Positions 5,691 through 26,548 of a DNA stretch of 64,000 nucleotides are shown piece after piece (positions within the stretch are counted from its first letter, which is position 1; every line of letters starts with the position of its first letter). The position numbers and the translations under genes were made by a program. Origin of the DNA: Mycobacterium pseudokansasii (GTDB lineage: Bacteria; Actinomycetota; Actinomycetes; Mycobacteriales; Mycobacteriaceae); the NCBI RefSeq assembly GCF_900566075.1, contig NZ_UPHU01000001.1:4650325-4714324 (forward strand), in the 5' to 3' direction. Below the pieces are notes generated by a model, which was not told the DNA's origin, did no database searches, and saw only the letters and a program-made list of their open reading frames with translations.

Positions 5691-7118
5691 TTACTCGATC
5701 ACCCCGCTGAGGTCGAACTCGGCCAGGGTGCGTGCCGCCAGCTCACGCAGTTGGGGCTTGGAGCAGACCTCACCGGCCTGGTAGGCGACGACGGTGATGC
5801 ACATCTTGCCGCTGATCCGGACGAACACCAGCGATAGTTCGCCGTGGCGCTCGAGATGCTCCCGCGTGACCCGTTGGATCACGCCGCCGCCGAACGCGTA
5901 TTCGGCTTCGGTTCCGTCCGGGCAGGCCGCCACGGCGGCCAGATCGCCGAGACTTGAACACGCCACGGGCAGATCGTCGTAGCCGAACGCGGCCTCTGCC
6001 AGCCGTTTGAGCGCCCGCTTCGGGACGTACGGCACTAGCGGGGCAAGTGGAAGCATCGGCGAGGCCACTTCGGGGGTTTCGCGCAAGGTGTTGAACACCC
6101 GCTTGATGGCCGCGCGGGTGTGCGACAAGTCGGTTGTGACCCGGCTCGGATCGACACTCACGCTCACAAACGACAGCGTGTTGGCCCGGGCGTCGTCTTC
6201 GGTCCGGTCGCTGAGCGGCACCTGCAAGGTGACCGTGCCGTTACCGGCACGCCCGCGCCCCATCCGCTCGCCGAGTTTGGCAGCCAACCCGGCAGCCAGA
6301 TGGTGGCTGGTCCCGCCAAGGGCGCTGGCACGCTCATCCCACTGATCCAGATCGACGTGGATGGCGATCGCCGGCACCACGACACGTTCGTCGCCGTAGC
6401 CGCTCCCGGCGGCGACCGACCGCGACGGTGTCGACGCGGCGGCAGTCGCCTCCTCGTGGCGACGACGCCGGGCCGCTCTCGCCGCCCCGGCAAAGGCCCG
6501 GCCGACCTCGGGCGCGCCCCGCACGGTCTGCCGGGCATCCTGGGCCAGCGCCCGCAGCCGAGTGCGGGAATGCGGCGGCGGATAACCGAGGTTGCGCGTC
6601 TTGCCGATGGCCGCCTCGGCGACCGCGAGGCCTATCCCCAACCCGTCGATCAGGCAGTGCGACGCCACCAGGCTGACCGCGGTCGAGCCGTCCGTCAGCG
6701 GAAGGACGCCCAGGTGCCAGGCGGGCCCCTGCTCCGGATCGATCGGTTCCTGGGCGCGCTCGTCGATCCAGTCGCTGAGTTCACCGCGTGGACGCGGACT
6801 CTCGGCCACTTCCATCTCCGCCGGCCCCCGGTCGCAGACCCAGCGATGGCGGGCGAACGGCAGTGGCGAACGCTCGATGCGCCGCCCCAGCAATCCACAG
6901 CCGAGGTGGTGGTGGAAGCGTTTGAGTGCCTCGAAGTTGACCGGATGTTCGTATACCCACACACATTGGACGACAGCGGCCCGGTCCATGGCGCGCAGCA
7001 GCGCAAACATGGCTTGGTCCATGGACGACAGCTGATTGTCCGGCGATACTTCGCCGATGGGTGCATTGCTTTTCCGGAGCGTCTGCAGCGCTCGCGCCGG
7101 CCGTATCTGGACTGGCAC
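5691..7118 (-). CDS. Condensation-superfamily acyltransferase (WS/DGAT or PapA-like)
   Basis: A 475-residue protein with an N-terminal LSSMDQAMFALL segment reminiscent of wax-ester synthase/PapA proteins. It has the active-site motif SHCLIDG (His154, Asp158): the first His of HHxxxDG is Ser, while the second, catalytic His and the Asp are kept. Such enzymes join an acyl thioester to an amine or alcohol. It lies next to the thioesterase, divergent from a hybrid PKS/NRPS operon, so it may acylate or release that product (inference). An alternative is a triacylglycerol-type acyltransferase unrelated to the cluster. The N-terminal ~25 residues may not be part of the real protein. Confidence 0.65.
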   Translation of the reverse strand: MPVQIRPARALQTLRKSNAPIGEVSPDNQLSSMDQAMFALLRAMDRAAVVQCVWVYEHPVNFEALKRFHHHLGCGLLGRRIERSPLPFARHRWVCDRGPAEMEVAESPRPRGELSDWIDERAQEPIDPEQGPAWHLGVLPLTDGSTAVSLVASHCLIDGLGIGLAVAEAAIGKTRNLGYPPPHSRTRLRALAQDARQTVRGAPEVGRAFAGAARAARRRRHEEATAAASTPSRSVAAGSGYGDERVVVPAIAIHVDLDQWDERASALGGTSHHLAAGLAAKLGERMGRGRAGNGTVTLQVPLSDRTEDDARANTLSFVSVSVDPSRVTTDLSHTRAAIKRVFNTLRETPEVASPMLPLAPLVPYVPKRALKRLAEAAFGYDDLPVACSSLGDLAAVAACPDGTEAEYAFGGGVIQRVTREHLERHGELSLVFVRISGKMCITVVAYQAGEVCSKPQLRELAARTLAEFDLSGVIE

Positions 7119-7269
7119 TTGTCAGCCTCCGATCGATTGCGGGTTGTGTCGCCGGGCAAACACCCGTACAACGTCAACCGGTCAATGCCGGCGCCGCGCG
7201 CCGGCCCTTGCCGGCGATGGCCACCGGAATCCGTTTCCGGTCCTCTCCCGGTGCGCGGCGAACGCGGGA

Positions 7270-8010
7270 TCAGACATTGGTCACGACGCGGTTGGCGACG
7301 GTGTTGGTGTGATCCTTGATGTAGAAGTGACCGCCGTCGAAAAACGACAACGTGAATTTGCCGTCGGTGTGGTTGGCCCACCGGTGCAGCGACCCGGCAT
7401 CGACCCGGCTGTCATGCCGGCCGCCGATGACGTGGATATCGGCGCGAATGCGCACCCCGTTGCCGCAGCCGTAGCGGTTGAGCGCCTGGTAGTCGCATCG
7501 CGCCGCATTGGTCAGCAGCTCGACGAACTCCTCGTCGGCCAACAGCCTGGGGTCGGTCCCGCCCATGTCGGCAAGGTCGGCCAGCAGCTCGGTATCGCTG
7601 GTGGGTAGCTGGGGCAGATCGGCGACCGCGGATGGTACCGGGCCGGCCGACACCCACAGTTTGCGCACCGCGATACCGCGCTGTTCGGCGATCCGGGCAA
7701 ATTCGAACGCCACCACCGCGCCCATGCTGTGCCCGAACAGCCGCAGCGGTGCCGCCTGGTTCCAGGGGCCCGCCTGGAACAACCCCAGGGCCAGGTCGTG
7801 GATATCTCGGGGCGCCGGATGGTTGAGCCGCTCGGCCCGCTGCGGGTACTGGACGATGAACGTGTCGCCGCCGGCGGCCAGGGCCGCCGCCAATTTCCGA
7901 TAGCTGGCGGCCGCTGCTCCGGCGTGCGGGAACACCACGATGGCGCCGCGGTGAGGTTGTCGGTCCGGCCCCGGCACGCGCTTGATCCAGGGCGCGAATG
8001 TGGTTGACAT
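7270..8010 (-). CDS. Type II thioesterase of the NRPS/PKS cluster
   Basis: An alpha/beta hydrolase of 246 residues with the serine nucleophile in GHSMG (Ser95), a likely acid in GGRHDSR (Asp200) and the histidine in GGHFY (His228). The opening VVFPHAGAAAASYRKLA is typical of TesA/GrsT-type external thioesterases, which remove wrongly loaded acyl groups from carrier proteins. The ATG at 8010 follows AAAGGA. It is transcribed away from the mycobactin-like operon across a 0.7-kb gap. The assembly-line proteins here have no integral thioesterase, so this could also take part in release. Confidence 0.88.
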   Translation of the reverse strand: MSTTFAPWIKRVPGPDRQPHRGAIVVFPHAGAAAASYRKLAAALAAGGDTFIVQYPQRAERLNHPAPRDIHDLALGLFQAGPWNQAAPLRLFGHSMGAVVAFEFARIAEQRGIAVRKLWVSAGPVPSAVADLPQLPTSDTELLADLADMGGTDPRLLADEEFVELLTNAARCDYQALNRYGCGNGVRIRADIHVIGGRHDSRVDAGSLHRWANHTDGKFTLSFFDGGHFYIKDHTNTVANRVVTNV

Positions 8011-25635: not shown

Positions 25636-25837
25636 CGAGACCGGCGCCTTCGTCGTTCTGGCCAACGACGAAGAGCAGCACAGCCTGTGGCCCACATTCG
25701 TCGAGATCCCCGCCGGCTGGCGCACGGTGTACGGCGAGGCCAGCCGGGCGGATTGTCTGCAATACGTCGAGGAACACTGGACCGACATGCGGCCCAAAAG
25801 CCTGCGTGAGGCGGTCAATTCGGGGCGGTCTGGTTAG
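25610..25837 (+). CDS. mbtH: MbtH-family NRPS activator
   Basis: A 75-residue protein with the full family signature: NDEEQHSLWP, P-x-GWR-V, Cys in ADCLQYV and W-x-DMRP near the end. MbtH proteins bind adenylation domains and are needed for their folding or activity. It begins at tandem ATGs (25610, 25613) just after AGGAG and overlaps the end of mbtG by about 25 nt, so it is translationally coupled. The partners are presumably the three A domains encoded upstream. Confidence 0.96.
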   Translation: MMSTNPFDDETGAFVVLANDEEQHSLWPTFVEIPAGWRTVYGEASRADCLQYVEEHWTDMRPKSLREAVNSGRSG

Positions 25838-25918
25838 CCAAGCCAGCCGGCGCCGGCCACGCGGTGACTTCGATCCCGAATCGCGACACCTACGACAGCA
25901 ACCGAAACCCGAGACGAC

Positions 25919-26548
25919 ATGAGTGAACCCGACGTGATCCTGCCGCGGGAACTGACCGACCTACCCGACGAGGTCCGCAATATCCCGCCGCCGCCTGCCC
26001 AACCCGAAGTGCCCGAACCATACGCATTCCGGCTGGCCGATCCCGATGCCGATGCCGACATGATCGCCGAATGGATGCGCCGGCCCCACCTGGCCGAAGC
26101 ATGGGAGTACGTGTGGCCGGTGTCGCGGTGGCAGCGCTACCTGCGTGCCCAGCTCGACAGCAGCTATTCGCGACCGATGATCGGCAGCATTGACGGACAA
26201 GACCATGCCTACGTCGAACTCTATTGGGCAGCGAAGGATTCCATCGCTACCCGATACGAGTGGGCTCCTTATGATCTGGGCATCCACGCCGGCATGGCCG
26301 ACCCGGAAGTCACGAACAAGGGAATCGCCCAATTCGTGTTGCCGCACTTGGTGGCCAGTATGCTCAACGCCGAACCGCGATGTCGGCGAGTCATGTTCGA
26401 TCCGGACTACCGAAACAAGATAGCGCGCAGGTTCTGTGAGCGCGCCGGCTGTGTATTTCTCGGCGAACACGACATGGCGAATCGCCGGATGGCGCTGTAT
26501 GCATTGCCCCGGACACCCGACGACGTACCCCGGGCTAAAGAATCGTGA
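25919..26548 (+). CDS. mbtK: Lysine N-acyltransferase (MbtK-like)
   Basis: A 209-residue GNAT-fold acyltransferase of the IucB/MbtK type, which acylates N-hydroxylysine, usually with a long chain in mycobactins. It strongly resembles the Rv1347c sequence I recall: MIAEWMRRPHLAEAWEY-WP, YVELYWAAKDSI, PYDLGIHA, EPRCRRVMFDPDYRN, GCVFLGEHDMANRRMALYAL. In M. tuberculosis this gene is at a second locus far from mbtA-H; here it directly follows mbtH after 81 nt on the same strand. The ATG at 25919 follows a weak ribosome site. It completes the operon and ends convergent with PPE18. Confidence 0.92.
   Translation: MSEPDVILPRELTDLPDEVRNIPPPPAQPEVPEPYAFRLADPDADADMIAEWMRRPHLAEAWEYVWPVSRWQRYLRAQLDSSYSRPMIGSIDGQDHAYVELYWAAKDSIATRYEWAPYDLGIHAGMADPEVTNKGIAQFVLPHLVASMLNAEPRCRRVMFDPDYRNKIARRFCERAGCVFLGEHDMANRRMALYALPRTPDDVPRAKES

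Follow-up and report, generated by a model that had tools for sequence, protein, structure and literature searches.

A mycobactin-type gene cluster of Mycobacterium pseudokansasii predicted to lack the aryl starter and IdeR control

The window, a 64,000-nucleotide stretch of the Mycobacterium pseudokansasii genome (G000:C1:4650325-4714324; the genome comprises 6.43 Mb in two contigs), carries a gene cluster related to that of mycobactin, the textbook mycobacterial siderophore, whose assembly is entered through MbtI, MbtA and MbtB. We put at roughly two in three the probability that this cluster is a paralogous mycobactin line that has lost the salicyl-oxazoline start, begins at N-acyl-N-hydroxy-lysine and lies outside the control of IdeR. 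Neither MbtB nor the salicylate synthase MbtI is encoded in the window, as a preliminary description of this DNA had reported; the genome's sole MbtI lies at 4.16 Mb and its sole MbtB-type cyclisation domain at 4.13 Mb. The features of the cluster are listed below in window positions.

4195..5568, minus strand: cytochrome P450 (PF00067, 189.5 bits), kept in 16/16 related clusters
5691..7118, minus strand: WS/DGAT-type acyltransferase (weak PF03007 and TIGR02946 matches), adjoining the cluster in 15/16
7270..8010, minus strand: type II thioesterase (TE; PF00975; 59-66% to the TE of canonical mbt clusters)
8011..8915, no strand: divergent promoter region without an IdeR box (pattern search)
8916..10247, plus strand: mbtC-type ketosynthase (KS)
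10247..13405, plus strand: mbtD-type AT-KR-ACP polyketide synthase (PKS; NF037940, 1412 bits, cut-off 1150)
13398..19934, plus strand: mbtE-type nonribosomal peptide synthetase (NRPS), C1-A1-T1-C2-A2-T2, 2178 residues (Pfam, domain anatomy)
13398..13502, plus strand: degraded N-terminal docking segment of MbtE (alignment of 31 MbtE)
13905..13907, plus strand: codon of MbtE residue 170, Arg replacing the second His of HHxxxD
17976..19505, plus strand: MbtE A2 adenylation domain (A4 motif FLEGCM versus FDISVA in LgrA)
19931..24352, plus strand: mbtF-type NRPS, C-A-T-C(terminal) (Pfam; first condensation motif intact)
24349..25635, plus strand: mbtG-type lysine N6-hydroxylase (PF13434)
25610..25837, plus strand: mbtH (PF03621, 96.7 bits)
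25919..26548, plus strand: mbtK-type N6-acyltransferase (PF13523, 147 bits; best PDB match Rv1347c, 1yk3, E 1.9e-72)

The genes mbtC-D-E-F-G-H-K stand at 8916-26548 in this order, as first described, and every open reading frame (ORF) of the cluster is intact. The window's condensation-domain matches are just the four of MbtE and MbtF. The PKS scores as the MbtD equivalog of the mycobactin (mbt-1) locus; on the NbtC model it reaches 678 bits, below the cut-off of 1150, and so does not class as a nocobactin (nbt) PKS. The MbtG- and MbtK-type enzymes are predicted to provide the lysine N6-hydroxylation and N6-acylation of hydroxamate siderophores. The preliminary description ran the unit from 5691 to 26548; its end stands, and its start moves to 4195 because the P450 (4195-5568) is conserved with the cluster. 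The PKS-first order that it took as an oddity is ordinary, since mbtC-D precede mbtE-F also in the canonical clusters read.

About 0.5 Mb away, at G000:C1:4130934-4151622, lies a second PKS-NRPS set of nocobactin type with MbtB-, MbtF- and MbtE-type NRPSs, GNAT, TE, KS, PKS and lysine monooxygenase. It is followed by an mbtA-like aryl-AMP ligase (4151760-4153397; TIGR02275, 564 bits, below the cut-off of 724) and by MbtI (4160805-4162061), the genome's only salicylate synthase above cut-off. MbtI and MbtB were searched for genome-wide, MbtA was not; the sole MbtB (E 1e-60) sits in this locus, which thus holds, at 4.13-4.16 Mb, the two activities that the window cluster lacks. Its PKS (4.147 Mb) is an NbtC equivalog (1489 bits, cut-off 1150), and IdeR-type boxes are present inside the locus, which therefore appears to be under iron control. 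The window cluster is therefore not a moved piece of a sole mycobactin locus, which the preliminary description had offered as one possibility. That description had also considered a genome without other mbtC-H genes, and the genome-wide check found this second set. That an ordinary mycobactin pathway has been split by rearrangement is scarcely tenable: in its favour, a true MbtD equivalog score goes to the window PKS and not to the nocobactin-type one, but a complete second locus is present in the same genome, and related genomes also carry a further MbtD near MbtB (see below). The other proposal, of a second, divergent system, agrees with what the sequence reveals, namely a complete set elsewhere in the genome that includes mbtI, mbtB and an mbtA-like ligase, and with the recurrence of the window type in many species, nearly always as an additional cluster. 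An IS630-type transposase precedes the nocobactin-type locus (G000:C1:4130011-4162061), and the third-position GC of its genes is 0.72-0.82, mostly 0.72-0.75; because of these two features, this locus was possibly acquired.

A search of 118 genomes of the genus with the MbtD model gave 91 matches at E 1e-150, 64 of them over the cut-off. MbtB was searched for in 80 of the 91, and each has exactly one. In six of the 80 (G000, G004, G051, G064, G067 and G084) an MbtD over cut-off has no adjoining MbtB, and MbtB adjoins a second MbtD match (700-765 bits); G105 is similar, but with MbtD in two pieces. The drafts G024, G053 and G110, with mbtC-H and MbtB on separate contigs, were left unjudged. The acyltransferase provided a second route. 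It belongs to a large family, and its profile matched at least 310 of 396 genus genomes sampled from a larger set at E 1e-60; the best 15 matches (at least 721 bits) all adjoin window-type clusters. The sixteenth such cluster is in G281, where the best match (701 bits) is 1.8 Mb away. G274, followed up from these matches, has no MbtD match. In a named collection, 11/11 loci matching the acyltransferase alignment adjoin mbtC and/or mbtD, though most of these presumably overlap the numbered genomes. The window type is thus found in at least 16 genomes, from the M. kansasii, M. szulgai, M. gordonae and other lineages. Ten of these (G000, G004, G051, G064, G067, G084, G219, G158, G216 and G105) carry a second MbtD match of 705-763 bits together with MbtB on one contig; the NbtC test was run on the second PKS of G000. 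A further MbtD accompanied by MbtB is found in G271, G203 and G358 (over cut-off) and in G150 (1069 bits, below it), lying elsewhere in the genome with MbtB nearby in G271, G203 and G150, and on a contig other than that of MbtB in G358. In G227 the MbtB is of the 56% type, and a search at E 1e-140 gave no second match to MbtD. In G281 (99% complete, 2 contigs, 3% contamination) neither MbtB (E 1e-60) nor MbtI was found.

According to passages of PMC9769636, IdeR binds to the mbtB promoter and shuts it down when iron is high. IdeR-type sites were sought with the mbt-type pattern TTAGNNNAGNCTNNNCTAA, which recovered 9/9 canonical mbt clusters serving as controls; each, the split clusters of G103 and G027 included, has a box with 0 mismatches no more than 5.5 kb upstream of mbtC. 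All six nocobactin-type sets have a box with 0-1 mismatch. No site within 2 mismatches occurs in the window, and the best site in the 5.5 kb upstream of mbtC has 4 mismatches, the same as in shuffled sequence. Among the 16 window-type clusters, 0/16 have a box within 1 mismatch, and their best sites, 2-5 mismatches off, are shuffle-like. By this pattern, the window cluster would not belong to the IdeR regulon. A strict palindromic IdeR consensus was tried and dropped as too strict: it gave no site in the window and one place in the genome within 2 mismatches.

The entry side of MbtE is altered as well. We aligned 31 MbtE sequences, 16 of window type and 15 for comparison (9 controls and 6 nocobactin-type). 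A helix like RRLELLRRKLAERGL opens MbtE in 9/9 controls and 6/6 nocobactin-type sets; we infer from its place and conservation that it docks MbtB. This helix is lost or degraded in 13/16 window-type sequences and truncated in G064. The second His of HHxxxD in the first condensation domain (C1) is lost in 7/16, replaced by Arg in G000 (His170Arg) and G358, Gln in G271 and G004, Pro in G227 and G150 and Ser in G281, in at least four independent events on the tree. The N-lobe of C1 is partly missing in G004, G227 and G203. Each of the 16 has a docking-helix defect and/or the C1 His loss, and none of the 15 comparison sequences shows either (0/15 and 0/15). Judged by helix and motif, the window MbtE would not accept an MbtB-bound chain. 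Downstream, the first condensation motif of MbtF is intact in 16/16, and the terminal domain of MbtF resembles that of 8/9 controls, the exception being G054, whose MbtF is of the other type.

These features bear on the possibility that the nocobactin-type locus lends its MbtA, MbtB and MbtI in trans and that the product of the window line is thereby an ordinary capped mycobactin. The single MbtB per genome in the 80 genomes, even with two PKS-NRPS sets, would suit such sharing, and G103 indicates that in principle supply from a distance could work: its MbtB and mbtC-H lie about 3 Mb apart, and a second match to MbtD was not found at E 1e-150. G027 shares this layout, though its MbtE has an in-frame stop. 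Nocobactin-type sets without MbtB in G041, G026 and G036 also speak for it. However, docking helix, C1 His and IdeR box are all preserved in G103 and G027, unlike in the window type; the window C1 has no catalytic His; and G281 offers no MbtB to share. We consider trans supply unlikely. As side observations, G103 and G027 apparently have split mycobactin pathways, with an IdeR-type box at both parts. The sets of G026, G041 and G036 (mbtE-F-GNAT-TE-KS-PKS) are the mirror case of the window type: the MbtB of these genomes is canonical, and the stretches read hold no MbtA, MbtB or lysine oxygenase. Because they retain IdeR-type boxes and the docking helix, these sets may share the canonical MbtB in trans.

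The tree was built from MbtE A1-T1-C2 (30 rows, leaving out C1 and G027). The 16 window-type sequences form one clade (100/97) nested in the canonical mbt clusters, so the window type would have arisen once from the canonical line and then been inherited or transferred. G054 is the sister of this clade (95/93), and the nocobactin-type sequences form a separate clade (100/100). Nonsynonymous to synonymous rate ratios (dN/dS) of C1/C2 are 0.327/0.105 (ratio 3.1) for M. szulgai-M. angelicum, 0.283/0.146 and 0.273/0.142 (1.9 and 1.9) for two M. gordonae-group pairs that share G004, and 0.225/0.167 (1.35, mean of 15 pairs) in the M. kansasii group. Control pairs gave 0.150/0.157, 0.160/0.180, 0.239/0.195, 0.185/0.207 and 0.326/0.232, and nocobactin-type pairs 0.208/0.150, 0.189/0.180 and 0.216/0.180, so that the C1/C2 ratio over the eight is 0.9-1.4; the G103/G027 pair was excluded, as the in-frame stop in G027 shifted the codons. 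C1 is relaxed in the M. szulgai and M. gordonae groups. For the ten cluster genes in six M. kansasii-group genomes, mean dN/dS runs from 0.085 (mbtG, the most constrained) to 0.296 (mbtD), with no internal stops, and all ten are under purifying selection. Together with the intact MbtF motif, these low values indicate that the first step is being lost from a cluster that is otherwise maintained.

That the cluster is decaying and makes nothing is accordingly very improbable. The decay of C1 and the reading of MbtD (G105, G227) and MbtE (G271) in two frames would fit it, but the intact window ORFs, the constraint just described and the occurrence of the type in at least 16 genomes do not. The two-frame readings themselves reflect decay or assembly error. 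C1 could also be a starter condensation domain that places a fatty acid on the first lysine, given the lipid enzymes that adjoin the cluster, the motif left intact in 9/16 and a C1 dN/dS that is still 0.22-0.33. Loss of the motif in the other 7/16, the N-lobe deletions and the raised dN/dS in two of three groups make this role rather improbable.

The third adenylation domain does not set the window type apart. Three such domains are present, as the preliminary description stated, but the third is not distinctive, being found also in canonical clusters that keep mbtB. A2 is whole in 15/16 window-type MbtE, that of G271 running into a second frame, and is whole also in G054, G041, G103 and G027. 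In the other five controls (G059, G106, G117, G030 and G089) MbtE is C-A-T-C-T, with A2 remnants between C2 and T2. On the MbtE tree, which G027 stands outside, this history takes one change. As a mark of a new product the third domain was rejected, since the capped G054, G041 and G103 also have it, as does G027; G103 is counted as capped although its MbtB lies elsewhere in the genome. By sequence, the domain is ancestral in MbtE and not the novelty; the better evidence for a distinct line comes from the lost IdeR box, docking helix and first condensation motif. Aligned to LgrA, A2 has Leu at the position of the A4 Asp, which we take to be Asp235. Because Leu replaces this Asp, A2 probably does not take an alpha-amino acid; its substrate may be a beta-hydroxy acid for an ester made by C2.

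Several points weigh against an uncapped line free of IdeR. The docking helix is largely kept in G358 and G281, a remnant is still recognisable in the M. kansasii group, and its proposed partner follows from place and conservation only. The C1 His is retained in 9/16. In the window's own M. kansasii group the relaxation of C1 does not exceed that of the controls, and C1 dN/dS stays well below 1 in all groups. With one origin, the 16 clusters are not 16 independent tests, though the His losses number at least four. MbtI is missing also in G203 and G036, where MbtB is present, so its absence is not special to G281. G216 has an IdeR-like site with 2 mismatches 461 bases upstream of mbtC, which shuffled sequence matches, and a mismatch-limited pattern would overlook weaker sites. 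The case is built on sequence, from which product and expression are predicted.

With these reservations, a pathway can be proposed for the uncapped line. MbtE A1 would load lysine with nothing condensed in front of it, and MbtG and MbtK would convert lysine to N6-acyl-N6-hydroxy-lysine. C2 of MbtE would then join the acyl-hydroxy-lysine by an ester to a beta-hydroxy acid, coming from MbtC/D and/or activated by A2, and MbtF would add the second lysine and cyclise. The P450, the WS/DGAT-type acyltransferase and the thioesterase may tailor or edit the product, which would be a lipid hydroxamate with its alpha-amine free or differently capped, made outside IdeR control. Metal binding by this product is plausible because the hydroxylase is conserved. 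The role of the cluster is probably not routine iron uptake, as the nocobactin-type locus can serve that. We judge it an even chance that a siderophore line, duplicated once in mycobacteria and severed from both aryl starter and iron control, has turned into a dedicated lipopeptide pathway that serves an end other than iron uptake. Its product would be an ester lactam of N-acyl-N-hydroxy-lysine, modified by the P450 and the acyltransferase and with its amine free or capped in another way. Loss of the entry steps together with IdeR control, if true, would represent a natural change of starting point by an assembly line, would predict an unknown lipid class in the M. kansasii complex, M. szulgai and M. 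gordonae, and would mean that the presence of mbt genes in genome surveys does not equal mycobactin production.

The accessory genes travel with the window type. The mbtK gene follows mbtG/H in 15/16 clusters (exception G271). TE is present in 13/16; it was not found in G150 and could not be settled by ORF picking in G064 and G004, though a tblastn search located it in M. gordonae, which is near G004. None of the WS/DGAT-type, P450 and mbtK proteins was matched (E 1e-10, best hits listed) among the ORFs picked in 33-36 kb around each of the nine canonical controls. The WS/DGAT-type protein has an H154xxxD158G motif whose His and Asp are invariant in an alignment of four rows; its nearest named relatives are from M. 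ostraviense (95%), M. innocens (94%), M. persicum (93%) and M. attenuatum (87%), which suggests a place in the M. kansasii complex, and a PDB search with it gave no useful match. In M. angelicum an MmpL transporter gene (L151:6271-9186; PF03176, 592 bits) lies between TE and mbtC; M. szulgai, M. gordonae and G004 have ORFs of 967-982 residues at this position, alike by place and length. G054 has a hybrid cluster with MbtA, MbtB and window-like mbtC-E including A2, and an MbtF nearer the nocobactin type (53% vs 43%). The M. pseudokansasii genome holds a solitary third mbtK-type gene (G000:C1:1713193-1713815), 66% identical to the window mbtK. Inspection by eye showed no obvious mbtL-N genes next to it, and the 12 kb read there held no IdeR-type site with 2 or fewer mismatches. 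The cluster is flanked on one side by a tetrahydrodipicolinate N-succinyltransferase-like gene (1033-2022) and an MFS transporter gene (2026-3462), and on the other, beyond mbtK, by a PPE gene (26795-27991), presumably the Rv1200 and PPE18 surroundings first described. An Rfam scan of the window at gathering thresholds gave no match.

Our literature searches found, within their range, no description of a mycobactin cluster lacking both MbtB and an IdeR box. Extra mbtC-F copies outside the mbt locus are reported in mycobacterial isolates, in passages of PMC10667711 that do not describe the window type, and 'mbt' does not occur in the main text of an M. kansasii transposon study (PMC10470612). 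The window cluster differs from known systems in several respects. Mycobactin Ab of M. abscessus and mycobactin M of M. marinum keep the aryl cap. According to passages of PMC9505556, both lack the N-acyl group on the internal hydroxylysine; the window line resembles them as a mycobactin-type scaffold departing from textbook acylation, and differs in that it includes mbtK, whose M. tuberculosis product is described in parts of PMC4376628 as the acyltransferase for the lysine of hydroxamate siderophores. For nocobactin, the relevant sections of PMC7413640 give NbtD as C-A-T-C-T, NbtF as T-Cy-A-T and NbtE as C-A-T-E, the first being the architecture of MbtE in the five controls with A2 remnants. 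The window cluster shares related PKS-NRPS logic with nbt, and the other locus of the genome is of nbt type; unlike nbt, its PKS falls below the NbtC cut-off and its MbtE belongs to another clade. The closest likeness in gene content is to the mycobactin mbt-1 locus (MbtA-MbtJ), in the order C-D-E-F-G-H, the MbtD equivalog score, the lysine hydroxylase and MbtH, and the A4/A5 motifs of MbtE A1 and of MbtF are like those of capped mbt clusters. Unlike mbt-1, the window has no MbtB, MbtI or IdeR box, its docking helix and C1 are degraded, its MbtE keeps A2, and MbtK, the P450 and the WS/DGAT-type acyltransferase adjoin it.

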